Positions 52 to 36,505 of a stretch of DNA of 64,000 nt are shown here, piece by piece; the stretch's first letter is position 1, and each line of letters begins with the position of its first letter. Made by a program: the position numbers and the translations under genes. The notes beneath the pieces were generated by a model. It was given only the letters and a program-made list of their open reading frames with translations. It searched no databases and was not told where the DNA came from. This stretch comes from Caldithrix abyssi DSM 13497 (GTDB taxonomy: Bacteria; Electryoneota; AABM5-125-24; Hatepunaeales; Hatepunaeaceae), in NCBI GenBank assembly GCA_945865405.1, contig CAMBDS010000005.1:1-64000 (forward strand). Reading direction: 5' to 3'.

Positions 52-61
52 ACGTAAAGAA

Positions 62-100
62 CAACCCCCCTTAATCCCCCCCGCAAACGGTGGGGAGATA
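62..100. repeat. Family A C-rich repeat, copy 1
   Basis: First of six copies of a roughly 40-nt element: a C-run, a short spacer, a second C-run, GCAAGCGG (here GCAAACGG), then TGGGGAGA. The second C-run can pair with the terminal GGGG. Other copies are at 7162-7200, 13369-13407, 16645-16688, 18565-18608 (inside hemW) and 25291-25331 (inside a secreted protein). Confidence 0.8.
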
Positions 101-7155: not shown

Positions 7156-7161
7156 GCGGTA

Positions 7162-7226
7162 ACACCCCCCCTTGATCCTCCCCGCAAGTGGTGGGGAGAC
7201 GAAGCGCGGGTTAAAATCCCGCGCTC
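7162..7226. repeat. Family A repeat copy 2 plus short hairpin (serC-serA gap)
   Basis: 7162-7200 is a family A copy (GCAAGTGG variant). It is followed directly by a palindrome, GCGCGGGTTAAAATCCCGCGC (7204-7224 approximately), of the same style as the GCGGACT..AGTCCGC hairpins at 13420, 31087 and 36480. Confidence 0.75.
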
Positions 7227-10047: not shown

Positions 10048-10059
10048 GGAATAATCTTC

Positions 10060-10182
10060 CGCTGGCAGACGCCCTCGTCTGCCAGCGGAATTCTTAATCC
10101 TTTTTCTAGCACTGGCAGACGAGACATCTGCCAGCACCAAACACAGTTGTTCCGTCAGACGATGGCGTCTGACGGCGGAATT
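10060..10182. repeat. Family B hairpins, three units
   Basis: Three hairpins in a row: GCTGGCAGACG...CGTCTGCCAGC, then ACTGGCAGACGAGACATCTGCCAGC, then CCGTCAGACGATGGCGTCTGACGG followed by CGGAATTC. They separate fbp from the tRNA gene. Some of the base changes between units are on both sides of the stem. Confidence 0.8.
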
Positions 10183-11278: not shown

Positions 11279-13372
11279 TTACTTTATACATACCACCTTC
11301 CTAAGCCTCACCGAACCAGCAGCTTCCATCCTCATCAAATAGACCCCGGCAGGAATGCCTTCGAAACCGACGACCTCTCGATGGACTCCAACTGATAGTG
11401 ACTCGTGGCGTTTTTGCCAGACAACCTTCCCTGTCGGATCAAAGATCATAAACGAAACCGGGCCATTGCCAACATACTGATACTCAATGGTTACGGTCGA
11501 ATTGAACGGTTGTGGGTAGCATGTTAACAATTCAGCAGGTAGCAACGTCTCCTTTTCGTCGCCCACTCCCATGCCTCGCACTGTAAGTTCTATCGGAAGA
11601 ATAACATCGTCGTAATAGTCCTCCACCGCCAACCTTAACTGCCCGAAATACTGACCCCCTCTGAGAAGTGTACCTCCTGCCTCATCCACGGTAGCGATGT
11701 TCAACCGAAATTCCTGTACATCGCTCGAATCGACAACTCCTTCTTCAGGCTCAATCTCCACATACGAAGGCGCTTCCCAAGCTCGCCCGCTATCTGCTGC
11801 CTCGACCGACATCGACCAGATAATGGGGAGGGCGCTGTGGCTTTGTAATGAGAAGTCAAAAGAGGCGTTCTCGCTTGAGACGAGGTCAGCAAAGAATCTA
11901 TATCGCGTCAATTCAAAGGGGTATATCTCAAGGATAGTCGCGTGACTGGTGATACCACCCGCAACCAAATGCACCGTCCCATGGGCGTTACGGGACTCTG
12001 AAGCACGTATCAGGAGGTCGGCGGAGGCCCAGAGTAATGTTTTTTGGAGTGCGACTCCGGTCCAGTTACCATCCTGATTGGTTTCAGTCCTAAGTAATTG
12101 ATCGCCATTACGCGTTAGGATTACTTCTGCTCCAGCGACTGGCTGGCCGAAACGGAGATCTTTCACATTCCCGTAGATTGATGCGGGAAAACCGCCGAAA
12201 GGCATACCACCAAGGTCTGCGCGGGAATTGTCGGGGTCGGGCGAAGAGTTTTCATCGCCAGCATTTATGCATGGGCTATTTTCGGAAAGTCCGTAATTTC
12301 CGTTATCTACATCGACAAAATTAGGATCCGAATTGAAATTGTTTTCACCCCATAAAAGGTTAATTCTGCCGTTTAATTGTATGGTATTGCGCTCACCTTC
12401 GATGTTGCAATAATCGAAATGAGCAGTAACTTCAATTGCCCCATCACCCAGTGAAATCAAGCGGTTAGCCTCGCCTCTGACAATGGAATTTATCAAATTG
12501 AAACGCGGTAACGCAAGCCCGCCGCTCGCATTTATTACACGCAATAATGTCGCATTTTCGGCGTTGCTTGAGATGAAAGTTACTCTATCAAAGGTCGTTA
12601 CTTCTCCCCCATTGCCCCCTCTGACATACACAGCGTCCGATGCAAGATCACCATTATCAATAGTTACGCGAAGGAGGGATGGGTGGGAGTATATGTAGAG
12701 GAGATTCACGTTGGTGTTCCACGCAAATTGACAATTTTCCAATATCGGTTTTGAGAAGTATGAGTATATCCCGCCAGCATTTTGTGCTGAGTTATTGGTG
12801 AAAGTGCAGTATTCGTAAGTATTTTGTGCCTCGTATTCTGTGACTGCTCCGCCAACACGAGCACGGTTGTTGTCAAAATTGACGCGACGGAAAGTTGGCG
12901 AAGAGTCGAAATAACAATAAGCTCCGCCCCCCATCTGGGATACTTCATTATCTACAACCCGCAAATCCTCGAAGACAGGCCGCGTCGAATCCCAACACAT
13001 GATGCCGCCGCCGTAGTCGGTCATCCCCCCTGTTACCGTGAAGCCGCGCATCAAAGGCGAGCCGACCCCACCGCCATCGGCACGAATTACGGGGCTGCCT
13101 GTGTCCGTCCCGTCGATGATCGTTTCATCGATGTACGCAGGGTCGCCGCTAGTCACCAGATGACTACCTAACACAAAATCGACCGATCGTAGCCTGACGG
13201 ACTCGTTGTAGGTTCCCGGCGCGACGAGAACTGTGTCACCGCGGCGGGCAAACTCGACGGCGACGTGAATTTGGTCGTAGTCGCCGGGGACGAGGATGAG
13301 GCGGGCGAGGGAAAGGGAGGGAAGGAGGGAAAATAATGAAAAGGTTAAAAATAATAGAATTAAGTGGTACAC
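11279..13372 (-). CDS. Secreted right-handed beta-helix protein with C-terminal sorting domain
   Basis: About 697 residues. Signal peptide VYHLILLFLTFSLFSLLPSLSLA, then a beta-helix region with PGDYDQIHVAVEFARRGDTV and repeated GGG-rich rungs (residues about 60-350). A short carboxypeptidase-regulatory-like segment follows (NVKDLRFGQPVAGAEVILTR). The C-terminal type-IX-like sorting domain is YPQPFNSTVTIEYQY ... GIPAGVYLMRM ... KVVCIK. The frame stays open to 13507, but the sensible start is GTG 13372, just before the signal peptide; a family A repeat supplies the G-rich sequence in front of it. Substrate unknown. Confidence 0.75.
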   Translation of the reverse strand: MYHLILLFLTFSLFSLLPSLSLARLILVPGDYDQIHVAVEFARRGDTVLVAPGTYNESVRLRSVDFVLGSHLVTSGDPAYIDETIIDGTDTGSPVIRADGGGVGSPLMRGFTVTGGMTDYGGGIMCWDSTRPVFEDLRVVDNEVSQMGGGAYCYFDSSPTFRRVNFDNNRARVGGAVTEYEAQNTYEYCTFTNNSAQNAGGIYSYFSKPILENCQFAWNTNVNLLYIYSHPSLLRVTIDNGDLASDAVYVRGGNGGEVTTFDRVTFISSNAENATLLRVINASGGLALPRFNLINSIVRGEANRLISLGDGAIEVTAHFDYCNIEGERNTIQLNGRINLLWGENNFNSDPNFVDVDNGNYGLSENSPCINAGDENSSPDPDNSRADLGGMPFGGFPASIYGNVKDLRFGQPVAGAEVILTRNGDQLLRTETNQDGNWTGVALQKTLLWASADLLIRASESRNAHGTVHLVAGGITSHATILEIYPFELTRYRFFADLVSSENASFDFSLQSHSALPIIWSMSVEAADSGRAWEAPSYVEIEPEEGVVDSSDVQEFRLNIATVDEAGGTLLRGGQYFGQLRLAVEDYYDDVILPIELTVRGMGVGDEKETLLPAELLTCYPQPFNSTVTIEYQYVGNGPVSFMIFDPTGKVVWQKRHESLSVGVHREVVGFEGIPAGVYLMRMEAAGSVRLRKVVCIK

Positions 13373-13475
13373 CCCCCCCTGCCCCCCCCGCAAGCGGTGG
13401 GGAGATCGGGATGACAAGAGCGGACTGAATGTCCGCTCTCCAAGATTTTTGCTGCCACCTACGGCGAGGTGGCAG
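13369..13475. repeat. Family A repeat copy 3 and two following hairpins
   Basis: 13369-13407 is a family A copy lying at the start of the beta-helix gene. It is followed by GAGCGGACTGAATGTCCGCTC (13420-13440) and CTGCCACCTACGGCGAGGTGGCAG (about 13451-13474). The last type also appears inside the secreted protein gene at 25388-25416 and in degenerate form near 31120. Confidence 0.75.
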
Positions 13476-13497: not shown

Positions 13498-15264
13498 TCA
13501 GAACCATATCGGGAGGTTGGCGAAACGTTTTTTCATGCTCTTGGAACAGAACGCCTCCATTTCGCGAGCACTTTGGATTTTTTGTGCTTTGTTGGCAAAA
13601 GCCTTGGCGTCGGCAAAAGTCATCGAGCGGATCAGCTTCTTGATCTCAGGTAGAGCGACCGGACTGACGGAAAGCTCATCCAAGCCAAGCCCAACCAACA
13701 GCATCGTCGCGACAGGACTGGCGGCTAACTCGCCGCAGAGGGCAACCTTAATGCCTGCCTTGTGCCCCGCCAGAACGGTCTTGGCGATAAGCTGGACGAC
13801 AGAAGGGTGTAGCGGCTTGTAGCGATCCCTGACGCGCTCGTTACCCCTATCGACGGCGAGGGTGAACTGCGTCAGGTCGTTCGTCCCGATGCTAAAGAAA
13901 TCGACCTCTTTTGCCATCCTCCCTGCTTGTAAGACTGCCGAAGGGAGCTCGACCATAATGCCGATTTTAATCTTGTCATCGAAGCGGATTCGCTCGCCGC
14001 GCAGGTCGTCCTTAACGGCATTGAAATGTTCCAACAATTCGTGCAGTTCGTCAAGCCCGGAAATCAACGGGAACATGATCTTCGCCGAGCCGTGCACGGC
14101 GGCTCGCAAGATCGCCCGTAACTGCGTCCGGAAGAGCTGTGGGTGATCGAGGCAAACCCTGATCGCGCGCCAACCAAGTACGGGATTGGATTCGGCGGGG
14201 GTTGGAAGCTCGGGGAACATCTTGTCGCCGCCGACGTCGAAGGTGCGGATTGTAACCGGACGCGGAGCGGAAAGCTCGATGACGCGGCGGTAATCCTCGT
14301 ACTGTTCCTGCTCGTTAGGAAGTCTCCGTCGCGCCAGTAGCAGGTACTCCGAGCGGAACAAGCCGATTCCGTCGCTACCTTTGGCAATGGCAGATTTCGC
14401 TTCGTTGGGAAGCTCGATGTTGGCGTTCAGCGTGATCCGCACACCGTCCAGCGTCTCTGCGGGGAGTTTTTCGATGTCCTCAAGGCTGGTGACGTAAAGC
14501 TGGTACTTTTCGCGCTTGGCTTCGTATTCGGGGATCGTTTCAGGCGAGGGGTGGATGATGACCTTGCCGGAATTGCCGTTGACAATGATCTGGTCGCCGG
14601 TTTTGACGAGACGGCTGACCTCTTTCAAGCCAACGACAGCCGGGACTTCGAGTGATTTCGTCAGAATTGCGGTGTGTGACGCAGCTCCACCGAGGTCGGT
14701 CGCCACGGCTACGACGTTTTCGCGCATCAAGTGGATCACGTCGGAAGGCAACAAGTCGTCGGCGACGAGGATATGTGGACGGTCGATGGGGCCTATGGAG
14801 GCATCGCTAAGTCCCAGCAAATTCTTGACGATTCGCAAGCCGATATCGACGACGTCTTGAGCACGCTGATGGAAGAAACTCCCCTCCAGCTTGGCGAGCT
14901 TGTCGCGATATTCCTCAGTGACGCGAGAGACGAGCACCTCTGCGTTGACGCCGCTCTTGTTGATGCCGCTTTCGATCCGGCCCAGCATTTCGACGTCTTC
15001 GAGGATCAGCAACTGGGCGTCGAAGATGCGCGCGGCGGTCTCGCCAGCCTGTACGGCGAGCCTATCGCGGAGATCGGTGAGCTGTCGCTTTGTCTCCTGA
15101 AGCGCCTGACGGAAGCGCGCGAGTTCGCGCTCGCGACCCTCCGGCGGGATGCGGAACTCGCGGAACTGCGGAACGTCGTGGCGGTAGAGGAAAACCTCAC
15201 CGATGGCGACGCCGGGGGCGGTTGGTACGCCGTGAAAGACCCGCTCTTGCGGAGGAGAAGACAT
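13498..15264 (-). CDS. ptsI: Phosphoenolpyruvate-protein phosphotransferase (PTS enzyme I)
   Basis: 588 residues. Transfers phosphate from PEP to HPr. N-terminal HPr-binding/His domain with the phosphorylated H197 in GGAASHTAIL (most enzymes have GGRTSH); PEP-binding TIM barrel with GIGLFRSEYL, RTFDVGGDKMFPE, GIMVELPSAV, FFSIGTNDLTQFTLAVDRGN and the catalytic Cys in CGELAASP. No HPr or sugar-specific enzyme II lies in the window, so a regulatory PTS or distant partners are possible. No Shine-Dalgarno is visible before the ATG. Confidence 0.93.
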   Translation of the reverse strand: MSSPPQERVFHGVPTAPGVAIGEVFLYRHDVPQFREFRIPPEGRERELARFRQALQETKRQLTDLRDRLAVQAGETAARIFDAQLLILEDVEMLGRIESGINKSGVNAEVLVSRVTEEYRDKLAKLEGSFFHQRAQDVVDIGLRIVKNLLGLSDASIGPIDRPHILVADDLLPSDVIHLMRENVVAVATDLGGAASHTAILTKSLEVPAVVGLKEVSRLVKTGDQIIVNGNSGKVIIHPSPETIPEYEAKREKYQLYVTSLEDIEKLPAETLDGVRITLNANIELPNEAKSAIAKGSDGIGLFRSEYLLLARRRLPNEQEQYEDYRRVIELSAPRPVTIRTFDVGGDKMFPELPTPAESNPVLGWRAIRVCLDHPQLFRTQLRAILRAAVHGSAKIMFPLISGLDELHELLEHFNAVKDDLRGERIRFDDKIKIGIMVELPSAVLQAGRMAKEVDFFSIGTNDLTQFTLAVDRGNERVRDRYKPLHPSVVQLIAKTVLAGHKAGIKVALCGELAASPVATMLLVGLGLDELSVSPVALPEIKKLIRSMTFADAKAFANKAQKIQSAREMEAFCSKSMKKRFANLPIWF

Positions 15265-16453: not shown

Positions 16454-16936
16454 TTTGCCCTTTGCTTTTTAAATTGTGGTGAGATTGCCTTTGATTGACA
16501 GATTTCTTAACACAATATATGGCAGTTCGAGCGGTAAGGCAAGGAGTGGGGGCGATTCGTTGGGAATAAAGCGTGGGGGATGGGCGTTGTAGGGGCGCAT
16601 TGGAATGCGCCCCTACGCGGAAGCAAGCTTCAGCACTCCGGAAAAAGGACACCCCCCCTTAGTCCCCCCCGCAAGCGGTGGGGAGATGTCCCGGCCCTCG
16701 AAGAGTGGCGGGGGGCTTGCCTTATGGGCTAACAATGCGTATTATTAAGGGAAGTAATCGGGGCTCGTAAACGGCCCCTACGGAAGAGGGCGAAGACAAG
16801 CTTCGCCCGTACCGAATAAGGTGTCGGGCAGGATGCCCGACCTACGCGTAAGTAGACAGGTTTGGAAACCTGTCGTACCGACAGAAATAAGGTGACAGAC
16901 TGAAGTCTGTCGTACTGACTTTTCAAGGAATTGAAC
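16454..16936. repeat. Repeat-packed intergenic region with six hairpins and a family A copy
   Basis: No gene. In order: GTAGGGGCGCATT palindrome (16589-16616, again at 46141-46168), family A copy 4 (16645-16688), GGGGC...GCCCC (16760-16782, again inside a gene at 49725-49747), GGGCGAAG...CTTCGCCC (16788-16808), GTCGGGCA...TGCCCGAC plus CTACGCG (16823-16848, again reversed at 47328-47353), GACAGGTTT..AAACCTGTC (16855-16874) and GACAGACT..AGTCTGTC (16894-16911, again reversed at 52293-52310). Loops are as short as 2 nt, and the 3' flank is repeatedly (C/G)TACG or (C/G)TACCG. Confidence 0.85.
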
Positions 16937-18280: not shown

Positions 18281-18298
18281 ATGACATCGCACCTTTGA
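18281..18298 (+). CDS. Possible 5-codon leader overlapping hemW
   Basis: ATG 18281 immediately follows the stop of the preceding gene and is 6 nt after GGAG (18271-18274). It reads MTSHL and stops at TGA 18296-18298, which overlaps the hemW TTG as TTGA. It may be a coupling minicistron, or the remnant of the original hemW start after a one-base change. Confidence 0.3.
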   Translation: MTSHL

Positions 18299-19461
18299 CC
18301 TCATTCTCGCTATACATTCACTACCCGTTCTGCATCAAGCGCTGCCCGTACTGCGGGTTTGCGACAGCAGTCGAAAAGGAAGACCTCGCGATCCGATACC
18401 GCGAGGTCTTGTTGCTTGAACTGAAGAGGCGAGCTGAAGAACCACCTTGGCGGGGCGGGACTGTCAGGACGATCTACTTTGGCGGAGGCACGCCATCGCT
18501 GATGCCGCCGGAATATGTCGGGGAAGTGATTGATTTGGTGGGGAGATTGTGGAAAATCGAGGATAAGGACACCCCCCCTTTGTCCCCCCCGCAAGCGGTG
18601 GGGAGATGGGACATTGAGATTACCCTCGAAGCGAACCCGGAAACGCGGGACATCAAGGCGTTCAGAGGCTTCCGCGAAGCAGGCGTCAACCGCCTCTCGA
18701 TGGGGGTGCAGTCGTTCGACCCGGAGGAACTGAAGCTATTAGGCAGAGCGCATTCGGCGGGAGGAGTCGGCGAGGCGGTCGCTATCGCTCGCGAGGCGGG
18801 TTTCGACAACCTTAGCCTCGACCTGATCTACGGCGTGCCGGGGCAGACAGTTGAGTCGTTTCGTCGCTCCGTAGAGTTCGCATTGGGGCTTGGTATCGAG
18901 CACCTTTCGACCTACACCCTCTCCATCGAAGAAGGAACTCCCTTTGCCCGTTCGGTGAAGGAGAAGCGTCTCCCTTACCCCGACCCAGACCTTATGGCTG
19001 ACCAATACGACGTATTGATCGATTTAACACGGCAAGCAGGCCTCGACCACTACGAGCTGACAAACTACGGCAAGCCGGGGCTTACCTCGCGCCACAACAG
19101 CGCATACTGGCAGAGAACGCCTTATCTCGGCGTAGGGTGTGGTGCTCACTCGTTCGACGGGACGACGCGCTTCTGGAACCGACGCGATACCCGCCAGCAC
19201 ATCAGCGCCGTTCACTCCGGCAATGACCCCCGCGAAGGCGAGGAGTCGCTCACTCAGGCTGATGTCAGGCAGGAAGAGCTTTACCTTGAACTTAGGCAAT
19301 CTCGCGGTCTCGAGGCTGGTGAAGTTGAACGGCTCTGCAAGCCAGAGGTTGTGGAGGAATTGCTTGCCTCAGGCTTCCTCGTTTGGGACGATTCACGCCT
19401 CCGAGTCGATGAACGGAAGTGGCTGATGTTGGATGAGATTGTGCTGCGTCTTCTGAAATGA
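18295..19461 (+). CDS. hemW: Radical SAM heme chaperone HemW-like protein carrying a repeat-encoded insert
   Basis: 388 residues. Radical SAM protein related to coproporphyrinogen dehydrogenase; HemW is thought to deliver heme. The cluster motif is C13-x3-C17-x2-C20 (CIKRCPYC), followed by TIYFGGGTPSLM, LEANPET, GVQSFDPEELKLLGR and LDLIYGVPGQT. Between the helix ending GRLWKIED and the strand IEITLEANP lies a segment of about 15 residues (DTPPLSPPQAVGRWD) encoded by a family A repeat (18565-18608). The start is TTG 18295 with no Shine-Dalgarno of its own. The HemN-type alternative is less likely, as HemN is longer. Confidence 0.88.
   Translation: MTSFSLYIHYPFCIKRCPYCGFATAVEKEDLAIRYREVLLLELKRRAEEPPWRGGTVRTIYFGGGTPSLMPPEYVGEVIDLVGRLWKIEDKDTPPLSPPQAVGRWDIEITLEANPETRDIKAFRGFREAGVNRLSMGVQSFDPEELKLLGRAHSAGGVGEAVAIAREAGFDNLSLDLIYGVPGQTVESFRRSVEFALGLGIEHLSTYTLSIEEGTPFARSVKEKRLPYPDPDLMADQYDVLIDLTRQAGLDHYELTNYGKPGLTSRHNSAYWQRTPYLGVGCGAHSFDGTTRFWNRRDTRQHISAVHSGNDPREGEESLTQADVRQEELYLELRQSRGLEAGEVERLCKPEVVEELLASGFLVWDDSRLRVDERKWLMLDEIVLRLLK
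18565..18608 (+). repeat. Family A repeat copy 5, inside hemW
   Basis: 44 nt, identical at 43 positions to the intergenic copy 16645-16688 only 1.9 kb upstream. The reading frame stays open through it, and it adds a proline-rich loop to the protein. Confidence 0.9.
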
Positions 19462-25107: not shown

Positions 25108-27294
25108 TTAGCGGAGCAGGACGACTTTTTGAGTGGAAACGTCGGTGCCGGACTGGAGGCGGACGAGATAGACTCCGGCGGGGACGGAAGAGGCGTCCCA
25201 GATAAGTTTGGAATTTGGAGTTTGGAGTTTGGAGTGAGGAAGGTCGAGCAGATCGATGACGAGACGGCCGGAAATGTCGTAGATACGTAATGAGACCCCC
25301 CCTACCCCCCCTGCAATAGCATGGGGAGATGCCGAAAACCGTATCGTCAGCATTGAGTTGAAGGGGTTGGGAGAGACGGAAAGAAGAGCTGCCGACCGCG
25401 GCGGGTCGGCAGTGGAACCGTCATGCGGGACGGCAAGGTCCCGCACCGTCACCTCCCACGTCACAGTATCGGCCTCGACAGAGTCTGCTACTACGCACTG
25501 CACTTGGTAAGGCGGACAGCTGTCCGCTTCACCGCCCGCAATACCAAACGCCCACTCCAGCGCAACAGTATCCTCCGCCGCCAACTCCCCATCCACCAGC
25601 CATTGAATGCTTAAGCTTTCATTCTCAGGCTCGCTCGGCACAATCTCGAAGTGGACGACGCTGTCGGGTTCAACGTCTAAGGTCAAAGCCTCCGGCACGT
25701 ACGCCCAAATAGCGCCTCGCACAGCGACATTCCAGATGACTTTGTCCGACGACTCATCGCGGAAAACTTTGCCTTCTACGGTGTAATTACCAGACCAAGG
25801 GAAGTCGATGGTTGCGTGTGAGTTTTGACCTAAATCTTCGGATTGATTGAGATTGAGATCGGTTTTTGTCCAGTTGTATTCCGGTTCGCCACCGGGAGAG
25901 TAGCGTATCTCGTCAATAGCAAAATCGAGTTCTGCGCCTCGCCGGAGGGTAAGGTCGAGAGTGTCGGGTGTGATGACGGAGATGATAACGTCGGTGACAG
26001 TAACGTGCCAACGCACAAAAACTTCTCGCTCTTCCCCGGGTTTCATCACACGACATTCGACTATATGTTCACCAACTTCATCAAAATTCTTAACAGCAAG
26101 AGTATCTATCGACATGGTATCGTCACCCAGTTTCCAGAGGTAATTAAGGTCGTTCCAATCCATATTGCGTGGGACGACGGTAAACTCAATCTCTGTTCCG
26201 GTTAAGACTTTCTGTATCGTATCAACAGGTGTATATACAAGATACTGAAGATGAAGTATATCGGGCTGAACTTTCATTAAGATGCCTTGACCATTAGAAT
26301 CGCCAACGACATACGCGGTTCCATCATCCAGTGTCACAATTGACTGCCATCCATAGCCACCTATCTCATTATCTTCTCTTCGCCATTGTTCAGTCCCCTC
26401 CTGATCGATTCGTAAAAGAGAATGTCCATAGGCATAAGCACAGATAACAAAGCCGCCGTCAGGCATTCGAGCTACCCCGCTGGCGACCCCGGCAAAATTG
26501 TAGTCCTGCCGCCAATCAAGGTCACCATCCTGAGCAAGCTTCAATGCTATAATGACAGCATTCACACCACTACCGACTGCCATAAATCCTCCCGGACAGG
26601 AGACAATGGCACGGAGCCCCCCTCGACCATGATAAAAAAAATCGATAACTTCACCTTCATGATCGAGGTGACAGACGAGCGATTGTCCTCCGCTTCCATG
26701 ACCAACAAGCATGTAACCATCCTCAGTTTCGCGCAAACCCCAAAAAAAGAAGTCATCAACGAATACCCTTGTCCAAAGTGTATCGCCTCCGGTATCGACT
26801 TTCACTACAAATGCTCCGCCGCCACCTCGTCCGCAAGCGACGAAATTACCCGCCTTTTCTTCGATGATTGCATTGCATTGCCCGCCTCCATACTCTTTCC
26901 ACCATATCAAACCTCCATCCTCATCAGTTCTAACAATTCCGAATTTTGTTGGAAACATTCCATCACTTCGGAGGTCACCTCCTATGACGTATCCACCCTC
27001 ATCGTCCTGAATGATAGTGCGTCCAAGGCAAAACGGAGTATTAAATCCTACCGGGTGCATACTCTGATGAATCAGCGCTCCATTGCGATCTGTCACTGCC
27101 AGCCACATAAAACGATCACGCCCGTTAGTCGCGCCAGTCATTGCGAAACCACCCTCTGCCGTCTTGAAAATATCGTAGAAAGCGCCGCCACGGTTTTCGG
27201 GGCCATCGTATCTGCGCACCCAATCGACCCGTGCTTGAGCGACCAGAAGCCCGGGTAGGAGAAGGTGAAGGAGCAGTAAAACGGTGAATTTCAT
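25108..27294 (-). CDS. Secreted repeat-propeller-like protein with sorting domain built partly from genomic repeats
   Basis: 728 residues. Signal peptide MKFTVLLLLHLLLPGLLVAQA. Residues about 25-350 are repeats of the form (E)DGG(F/Y)...GxxN/D..G, likely beta-propeller blades; then three PKD/Ig-like domains (about 370-600), and a C-terminal type-IX-like sorting domain (SVSPNPFNSMLTIRF ... VPAGVYLVRLQSG ... KVVLLR). The closest paralogue in the window is 41059-42480. The sorting region contains a family A repeat and a heptamer array as coding sequence (see repeats). Function unknown. Confidence 0.8.
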   Translation of the reverse strand: MKFTVLLLLHLLLPGLLVAQARVDWVRRYDGPENRGGAFYDIFKTAEGGFAMTGATNGRDRFMWLAVTDRNGALIHQSMHPVGFNTPFCLGRTIIQDDEGGYVIGGDLRSDGMFPTKFGIVRTDEDGGLIWWKEYGGGQCNAIIEEKAGNFVACGRGGGGAFVVKVDTGGDTLWTRVFVDDFFFWGLRETEDGYMLVGHGSGGQSLVCHLDHEGEVIDFFYHGRGGLRAIVSCPGGFMAVGSGVNAVIIALKLAQDGDLDWRQDYNFAGVASGVARMPDGGFVICAYAYGHSLLRIDQEGTEQWRREDNEIGGYGWQSIVTLDDGTAYVVGDSNGQGILMKVQPDILHLQYLVYTPVDTIQKVLTGTEIEFTVVPRNMDWNDLNYLWKLGDDTMSIDTLAVKNFDEVGEHIVECRVMKPGEEREVFVRWHVTVTDVIISVITPDTLDLTLRRGAELDFAIDEIRYSPGGEPEYNWTKTDLNLNQSEDLGQNSHATIDFPWSGNYTVEGKVFRDESSDKVIWNVAVRGAIWAYVPEALTLDVEPDSVVHFEIVPSEPENESLSIQWLVDGELAAEDTVALEWAFGIAGGEADSCPPYQVQCVVADSVEADTVTWEVTVRDLAVPHDGSTADPPRSAALLSVSPNPFNSMLTIRFSASPHAIAGGVGGVSLRIYDISGRLVIDLLDLPHSKLQTPNSKLIWDASSVPAGVYLVRLQSGTDVSTQKVVLLR
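25207..25234 (-). repeat. Heptamer array (TTTGGAR)4 inside a gene
   Basis: Four units on the plus strand, TTTGGAA then TTTGGAG three times. On the coding strand they give HSKLQTPNSKL within the sorting domain, between DLLDLP and IWDASSVPAG. Confidence 0.9.
25291..25331 (-). repeat. Family A repeat copy 6, inside a secreted-protein gene
   Basis: Diverged copy (TGCAATAGCATGGGGAGA end). It encodes ASPHAIAGGVGGVS between two core strands of the sorting domain. The reverse-strand reading resembles SPHRLRGGQGGV, which the copy at 13369-13407 would encode. Confidence 0.8.
25388..25530 (-). repeat. Two further palindromes inside the same gene
   Basis: CTGCCGACC...GGTCGGCAG at 25391-25414 matches the style of 13451-13474. 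GCGGACAGCTGTCCGC at 25511-25526, preceded by GGTAAGG, matches the element in the groES-groEL gap (50465-50492), which also begins GGTAAGGCG. Confidence 0.65.
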
Positions 27295-27496
27295 TTGGCT
27301 TTCAGAATTGAATCGAGAAGAAATTTGTAGGGTGAAAGTAACCGACGCTTATATATGCAAAATAATGAGTTAAATAGCAAGTGCATTTGATGAAATTCTT
27401 GAAATTATTTTAGGGGAGAATCGGACTATTCTATACAAATGTACTTAGAAGTTAAGAGACCTTAAGACATTAGAAATTAGTATGCGTATTAATCCT

Positions 27497-32774: not shown

Positions 32775-32851
32775 TTTTCCTTCTAACCTTGAAACGATCC
32801 CATCGACAAAATCACGCGGTCACTTTGAAAAATTTACAAATGACTTGGGTT

Positions 32852-32923
32852 CTGCCGTCAGACGAGGGCATCTGGCGGAAAGAGTCTGCCTAATGCTGTC
32901 AGACGAGGGCGTCTGACAGCGGA
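32852..32923. repeat. Family B paired hairpins upstream of the anti-sigma gene
   Basis: CCGTCAGACGAGGGCATCTGGCGG and then CTGTCAGACGAGGGCGTCTGACAG, ending GCGGAAA. The first arm pair is damaged by one change. Confidence 0.75.
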
Positions 32924-32940
32924 AAACGTGGCGGTATGAT

Positions 32941-35113: not shown

Positions 35114-36394
35114 TTAAAATGTCACTCCTGAGCGGACCAAGAACATCGGATGGCTGCGAGTTTCGGGATCCCAACCGACGAGAACGTGGCCCGCCTCAAC
35201 ATAAGGAAGCTGGAATTGAAGCCCGAAACCACAGGCAGTAAATCCGGAATAGTGCGTACCCTCAGTGTAGTCGAGATAACCGCGGTCAAGGAAGAGTAGT
35301 CCTTCTAACGAAAACTTGAGTTTTTGTAAATAACGCCCGGCGAGCGGAATCTCGCCAAAACTGAAGTATCTGATCGGCATGATGTTAAAGCGCACCTCAA
35401 AATTGGTCGAAAAGTAGCTCGTCCCTTTCAGCCCAAGAGCGCTGTTCGAACGGAGTTCGGAGGTGGCTAACTCAGGCTTACGATACCATGGTATTGTCTT
35501 CTGCGTCAGTTGGCCGCTGCTCCGCAGCGCCAATGTGATCCTGCCGAAAGACCTGTAGATGCGCCAATCGGCGTGTTCATCGTAAAAAGCGTGTGTCGTA
35601 TCGACCATGTGGTTAACACCTGAGACAAAGGTGAAGTAATAGCCTTTGCGGGGATAATAGACATAATTGCGCTTTTCAGTTTCATAGTAGATCCTACCGA
35701 TCAGGAGACGATCCCGCCCGCTTTCACTGAGGGTATAAAATGGTCCTTTCGAGGATCGCTCCTGCCACTCACCCTCAAGCCCTACCCAACGGTCACGGCC
35801 AAGGCGTTTTTGAAGCCTTAGCGCGAATGATTCGGTTGCTGCTCGATAGGCTATTCCTTCCGGGGATGTTACCTCAACATCATTGAAAATAATATGCGTC
35901 CTGAGACCGTACTTACCGCCGATTGAGAACCACGGGTCACGGTGAAGAATGTACATTCCGCGCTCGTAGCCGTCCCACCAACCGAATGAGAGCCTTTCGG
36001 CATATCCTCTGTAATTATAGTGACTGACGATGATGCCATAGACCCGATGCAACGGATTTTTCGGGTCATAGCGGAATATCGGGTAAGGGTAGATGTAAAA
36101 ACGCTCGGTAACACGGACCAGAACAACCGCCCGCCCAAGATCAGAGATAATCGTAAGTTCGACATGGTTGAAGACACCGAGAGAGAGGAGGTGAAACCGG
36201 TCAGCCTCCAGCAGTTCGGGGTCGGCTCGCTTGCCTGGCGCAAGCTTCATCTCGCGCAAGATCAGGTTCTCGTTAGTGACGTCGTTCCCGACGACTTTTA
36301 TTGCATAGATTTCGGGGTAGTCAGTGACAATAATCTGCGCATTTGTGAAAGAACTGACGAGAGAAAAAACAATTGCCAAGACTAAACGGTGAAT
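35114..36394 (-). CDS. BamA/TamA-like outer-membrane protein with one POTRA domain
   Basis: About 426 residues. Signal peptide (HRLVLAIVFSLVSSFTNAQ), one POTRA-like domain (IYAIKVVGNDVTNENLILREMKLAPG ... VELTIISDLGRAVVLVRVTE), and a C-terminal beta-barrel ending GWDPETRSHPMFLVRSGVTF, with the terminal aromatic Phe needed for barrel insertion. The start is unclear: the frame stays open through family B repeats to TTG 36526, which overlaps the preceding stop as TTGA. The signal peptide argues for ATT 36394 (GCGGAA upstream, from the repeat) or TTG 36379. Ends one base before rsmE. Confidence 0.75.
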   Translation of the reverse strand: MHRLVLAIVFSLVSSFTNAQIIVTDYPEIYAIKVVGNDVTNENLILREMKLAPGKRADPELLEADRFHLLSLGVFNHVELTIISDLGRAVVLVRVTERFYIYPYPIFRYDPKNPLHRVYGIIVSHYNYRGYAERLSFGWWDGYERGMYILHRDPWFSIGGKYGLRTHIIFNDVEVTSPEGIAYRAATESFALRLQKRLGRDRWVGLEGEWQERSSKGPFYTLSESGRDRLLIGRIYYETEKRNYVYYPRKGYYFTFVSGVNHMVDTTHAFYDEHADWRIYRSFGRITLALRSSGQLTQKTIPWYRKPELATSELRSNSALGLKGTSYFSTNFEVRFNIMPIRYFSFGEIPLAGRYLQKLKFSLEGLLFLDRGYLDYTEGTHYSGFTACGFGLQFQLPYVEAGHVLVGWDPETRSHPMFLVRSGVTF

Positions 36395-36399
36395 TTGCG

Positions 36400-36505
36400 T
36401 TCCGCCGTCAGACGCCCTCGTCTGACGGAAGCCACTTATTGTGTGCAGGCAGACGAGGGCGTCTGCCTGCAGAAGCGAGAGCGGACTAATAGTCCGCCCT
36501 CCAAG
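36400..36505. repeat. Family B paired hairpins plus GCGGACT palindrome
   Basis: CCGTCAGACGCCCTCGTCTGACGG, then GCAGGCAGACG...CGTCTGCCTGC, then GAGCGGACTAATAGTCCGCCCTCC. It lies between two outer-membrane protein genes; the first hairpin supplies the GGCGGAA in front of the likely start at 36394. Confidence 0.8.

Follow-up and report, generated by a model that had tools for sequence, protein, structure and literature searches.

The insert in HemW and its repeat

In this study we analysed a window of 64,000 nt, the whole stretch of DNA to which the coordinates of Table 1 refer, in which the gene for the heme chaperone HemW contains a segment that is also found between genes. This raises the question whether the segment is part of the protein proper or a copy of a repeat that has multiplied in the genome. 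The first-pass annotation of this DNA had described the match between the two copies as 43 of 44 positions, and we find the same at both coordinates, the single mismatch being A/T. A 44-nt pattern allowing up to 3 mismatches detects only these two copies in the window (18565 and 16645), where shuffled sequences lead one to expect 0.00. Repeat grouping joins three weaker copies in the window to this pair, at 57, 7158 and 13364. The subfamily B copy listed in Table 1 is not mentioned in the first-pass annotation. An Rfam scan of the window matched tRNA only.

Table 1. Positions of the hemW gene, the repeat copies and the secreted-protein ORF in the window
Feature	Position	Strand	Remarks
subfamily A copy	57..100	+	no long ORF scored across; contig edge
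subfamily A copy	7158..7201	+	no long ORF across
subfamily A copy, short-spacer form	13364..13407	+	judged intergenic; just downstream of minus-strand gene 13498-15264
intergenic subfamily A copy	16645..16688	+	43/44 identical to the hemW copy; flanking bases also alike beyond the core
hemW (radical SAM heme chaperone)	18295..19461	+	388 aa, TTG start
subfamily A copy (TTTGT spacer), in frame in hemW	18565..18608	+	encodes KDTPPLSPPQAVGRW, net +15 residues
746-aa ORF bearing the subfamily B copy	25111..27348	-	C-terminal Por_Secre_tail domain
subfamily B copy, CCCCCTACCCCCCCTGCAATAGCATGGGG type	25296..25326	+	antisense to, and in frame in, the secreted protein ORF: ...RFSASPHAIAGGVGGVSLRIYDISGRLV...

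The hemW ORF matches TIGR00539 with 258 bits against a cut-off of 205, and its CxxxCxxC (CIKRCPYC) and HNSAYW motifs are undamaged. It is the sole strong HemW match when its own genome is searched with TIGR00539; a second match, at C26:24870, is a 471-aa radical-SAM ORF that is distantly related. We aligned HemW with 27 homologues drawn from the family, the phylum and beyond, a comparison that the first-pass annotation had proposed. The alignment shows a single clean insertion (its peptide is DTPPLSPPQAVGRWD in the register of that annotation), which is found in none of the homologues covering the site. The spacing from GGGTPS to EITLEANP is 39 residues here, compared with 24 in 23 of 26 homologues and 23, 23 and 20 in the remaining three. 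Thus 15 residues (45 nt) have been added, which agrees with the earlier claim of about 15 residues in a place where the loop is normally short, and the DNA gained by hemW is essentially the 44-nt repeat itself. Relatives carrying the same residues without the DNA repeat, a pattern that the annotation had set against its own reading, were not seen among the HemW homologues. In the nearest relative by identity (G007, 63%) a contig ends close to the site, and no element is seen.

In radical-SAM barrels the loop before a barrel strand lies on the face opposite the active site. The loop holding the HemW insert precedes a barrel strand and would face away from the active site. A sequence alignment with HemN (1OLT) likewise places a gap before this same strand.

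Our preferred reading, to which we give a probability of about 85%, is that a small palindromic repeat has multiplied in this genome, that its copies lie in intergenic DNA as well as in frame within genes, where they are tolerated, and that the hemW insert is one of these copies.

Layout and distribution of the repeat family

The genome-wide mapping that the first-pass annotation had called for, carried out with a 66-base query, gave 42 copies of subfamily A in the 2.76-Mb draft genome, and 16 of the 41 copies scored are in frame within long ORFs. The element, whose core measures about 34 nt, consists of a C-run, a short spacer, a second C-run, a hairpin and a G-run. The 41 aligned copies have ACACCCCCCC-spacer-CCCCCCCGCAAGCGGTGGGGA in common and diverge outside it, and the core length is nearly constant (31-34 nt in 37 of them). 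A looser pattern, which has 173 matches versus 18 for a reversed-pattern control (overlapping counts in both cases), brought out further subfamilies whose hairpins differ, TGCAATAGCA (B) and TTCAATAGAA (C). The stems vary yet remain complementary across the subfamilies: TGC/GCA, TTC/GAA, TTT/AAA and CGC/GCG. A hairpin is predicted, but the energies of single copies are unexceptional when compared with shuffles (z -0.8 to -1.7). Inverted pairs of the element are seen in G005, arrays in G019 and one inverted pair in rarA here.

Apart from G006, every same-family genome examined contains the element or its class, which was also found in several further families of this phylum and, beyond it, in G039. 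In an Anaerolineae MAG more than 20 contigs carry the exact 21-nt core within a larger repeat, inside which the C-run element occurs in both orientations (L109-L132). Single matches to this core in Eremiobacterota, Planctomycetota and Gammaproteobacteria MAGs may be binning errors. The exact core was not found in the virus contigs searched.

In-frame copies in other genes

Several of the genes that carry subfamily A copies encode core enzymes, and some of these, alanyl-tRNA synthetase for one, are essential. The hosts alaS, carB, mazG and sucB match curated families above cut-off, while a RarA-type AAA ATPase and a PLP aminotransferase match their families but do not reach the specific cut-offs; the aminotransferase does exceed the cut-off of Pfam Aminotran_1_2. 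The other hosts are an FG-GAP protein, a Big_7 protein and secreted proteins. Por_Secre_tail is above cut-off in some of the secreted hosts and sub-threshold in others, and C1:323632-325287, with no Pfam match, was assigned by eye. When all subfamilies are counted on contigs C1-C3, the contigs covered by the pattern listing and BLAST, 25 of 39 sites lie in long ORFs, with DsbH-like, transglutaminase-like and histone-deacetylase-like proteins among the hosts. This tally is based on ORF length and family matches, with no gene finder; the two replaced a codon-usage score for gene calling around the copies, which failed on known genes including alaS. Of the 21 copies with a TTNNT-type spacer 4 are in genes, compared with 12 of the 20 that have another spacer (a post-hoc count; Fisher p = 0.011).

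One could propose that the repeat is in truth a conserved peptide or domain, with the likeness in DNA being secondary. Several secreted-protein tails do contain an identical peptide at the same place. Among the host genes, however, the DNA of subfamily A is translated in five of the six frames and in both orientations. The forward frames give PPLSPPQAVG in hemW and alaS, HPPLTPPASGG in secreted tails and the aminotransferase, and PPLDPPRKRWG in carB, and the reverse frames give PPLAGGAGGG in mazG, sucB and rarA and PTACGGDEGG in the C43 protein. No confirmed gene among the subfamily A copies uses the sixth frame (PHRLRGG). Since one DNA sequence yields several different peptides, it is the DNA that is conserved and not the peptide. 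That unrelated enzymes read this DNA in five frames and from either strand, and that near-identical copies are intergenic, contradicts the peptide explanation for subfamily A, and we regard it as very improbable. In subfamily B several copies occupy one site in related secreted-protein tails. Some of them may stem from a single event, and they may have multiplied as the tail domain was duplicated.

Some of the host genes have further unusual features. Both C-run copies of sucB (L144:1472-2782) have a second repeat next to them in frame, which encodes GQVSKPV; it looks as though different repeats insert into, or next to, one another. Two C-run elements and about 30 more extra residues (SPGAPLPVWNRGGEERERV and neighbours) are located between the halves of carB (L137). 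A subfamily C element, PPQSPPSIEGGVGGV, is also present at a second site in MazG (L134). At a contig end (G000:C20:49143) a copy may be in frame before an ILDAG-like methyltransferase motif (VRKELKRLKDTPPASPPQAGRKMRILDAG, by eye).

The same loops in other genera

In two enzymes, the loop that holds a copy in our genome also holds an element in a different genus. G002 has a TTCAATAGAA-type element in this loop of AlaRS, and G004 a TGCTGAGCA-type element in the RarA loop that holds the own-genome copies. The AlaRS and RarA loops have been hit independently in other genera, by different subfamilies. The RarA stretch has 67 residues here, 59 in G004, 50 in G005, 74 in G006 and 36-41 in the others. 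In MazG the stretch has 25 residues versus 16 in most. AlaRS, judged by eye, has hardly changed in net length, which suggests that part of its loop was lost at insertion or trimmed later. With net gains of 15 residues in HemW, 9 in MazG and almost none in AlaRS (by eye), the insertion was not a fixed-length event everywhere. The loop that holds the C-run copy in our MazG is occupied in the G007 protein (L216) by an unrelated insert, DDDDDKWRDSTLRIPHSA.

As frames and motifs are intact, the host proteins probably still function. Copies that break genes would have been purged, and the surviving copies would add small Pro/Gly-rich peptides in permissive loops of proteins that still work.

How the element might have spread

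The C-run element is very likely mobile, and it would represent non-autonomous mobile DNA. The idea that the hemW copy is merely an assembly artefact has in its favour that short G/C-rich repeats break assemblies and that copies are found at contig ends in another MAG. The hemW site is however well within a contig of 117 kb, the reading frame continues on either side of the copy, and at least 10 other genes as well as other genomes show the same pattern. An artefact is therefore the least credible of the explanations that we considered, with a probability close to nil.

Two questions about the edges of the copies are relevant here. A target-site duplication, which the first-pass annotation had suggested looking for, was not found: the mean edge repeat is 2.29 nt, compared with 2.48 nt with shuffled partners. 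A GGACA direct repeat at the edges of the hemW copy was considered as such a duplication and is within chance. The hemW and 16645 copies also have 12 flanking bases alike at the core edges (7 left, 5 right), the second-highest value of 820 pairs. This likeness beyond the core hints that the two copies are directly related. The annotation had taken the near identity of the two as a sign of recent spread; the identity itself stands, and the flanking bases lend the suggested recency weak support.

The most likely route, at a little under even odds, would be one in which some enzyme acting in trans copies the element by way of a single-stranded intermediate that forms a hairpin. Its main rival is template switching during replication, or slippage or gene conversion between C- and G-runs, with no transposase involved. 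Such a process fits the missing target-site duplication, the net lengths that vary by gene and the flanking bases common to hemW and the copy 1.9 kb away. The near-constant core and the unrelated sites on many contigs suit a defined unit better, and we consider this route possible, at roughly one chance in three. It is also conceivable that the element is the REP of one of the Y1 (RAYT) transposases of the genome and is moved by that enzyme. The genome has six Y1_Tnp genes, relatives contain the REP-like inverted dimers and arrays described above, and copies in our genome frequently abut other palindromes. On the other hand, all six Y1 genes are flanked by their own, different palindromes, the C-run element is found at 0 of 25 Y1 loci (71 kb, seven genomes), and neither of its ends carries a GTAG or CGTC tag, which makes this origin unlikely. 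No mobilising enzyme was identified in the own-genome Y1 neighbourhoods and the 25 Y1 loci of the seven genomes.

The palindrome families beside the six Y1 genes (L061-L066), for example TTGGAGCGCGGGATTTCAGCCCGCG, CAGTACGACAGACATTCTTGTCTGTC and TGGCAGACGAGGGCGTCTGCCAGCA, indicate several REP-like systems side by side in this genome. Paired palindromes CCGTCAGACGAGGGCGTCTGACGG in the window at 2434-2515, 10057-10181, 32845-32926 and 36391-36475 resemble the repeat beside the Y1 gene in L064.

Relation to known repeat systems

Rickettsia palindromic elements (RPEs) are long stem-loops of 105-146 bp found in 19 reading frames, and a guanylate kinase bearing such an insert is active (PMC2229807). 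Like RPEs, the palindromic family described here is both intergenic and in frame in conserved protein genes, where it is apparently tolerated. Unlike the longer RPEs, it has a core of 30-35 nt, an insert of 45 nt, a layout based on C-runs and a short hairpin. The proposal of the first-pass annotation that the insert is an RPE-like element of a different, C-rich family therefore holds, given its absence from homologues, the genome-wide family and the many in-frame copies. GTAG/CGTC REPs are mostly intergenic, and intragenic ones are documented in repair genes and tRNA synthetases, at times at about the same site in related genes (recB), so that in-gene REPs as such are a known kind (PMC3733652). 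The C-run element resembles them as a hairpin repeat of 20-40 bp that occurs singly, in inverted dimers and in clusters, with in-gene copies including one in a tRNA synthetase. It differs in the lack of a shared tag, with ACACC and GGGGA at opposite ends of most of the 41 aligned copies, in the lack of a neighbouring Y1 transposase at the loci examined, and in the large share of copies in genes. MITEs such as ERIC/RU-1 and the Correia 107-bp element are likewise small repeats of a non-autonomous kind that form in-frame fusions with ORFs (PMC2229807). They measure about 100-200 bp and have terminal inverted repeats, several with a target-site duplication, whereas no duplication was detected for the C-run element.

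The C-run class works like both RPEs and GTAG REPs, but we file it with neither, since it lacks the length of the former and the tag and transposase of the latter. A description of the class was not found in the literature on intragenic palindromes, a search limited to papers outside subscription and to text in which sequence motifs are not searchable. Both the C-run family and the extent to which it burdens core genes appear to be new. More tentatively, the C-run palindromes could form a separate class of small mobile DNA that crosses phyla, has its own mobiliser and resides largely in genes, where it would have remodelled the same permissive loops of core enzymes time after time in different genera; we hold this broader proposal to be somewhat doubtful.

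Implications

For annotation, our results are a warning that, in genomes of this kind, a Pro/Gly-rich peptide like PPLAGG or PPASGGG can be repeat DNA. They also extend protein-coding palindromic repeats to an uncultured lineage and to a new element class. With hemW, alaS, carB, rarA, mazG and sucB, a single genome offers a large natural collection of core enzymes that bear in-frame insertions, which allows testing which protein loops accept mobile DNA and whether the inserts are neutral or alter function.
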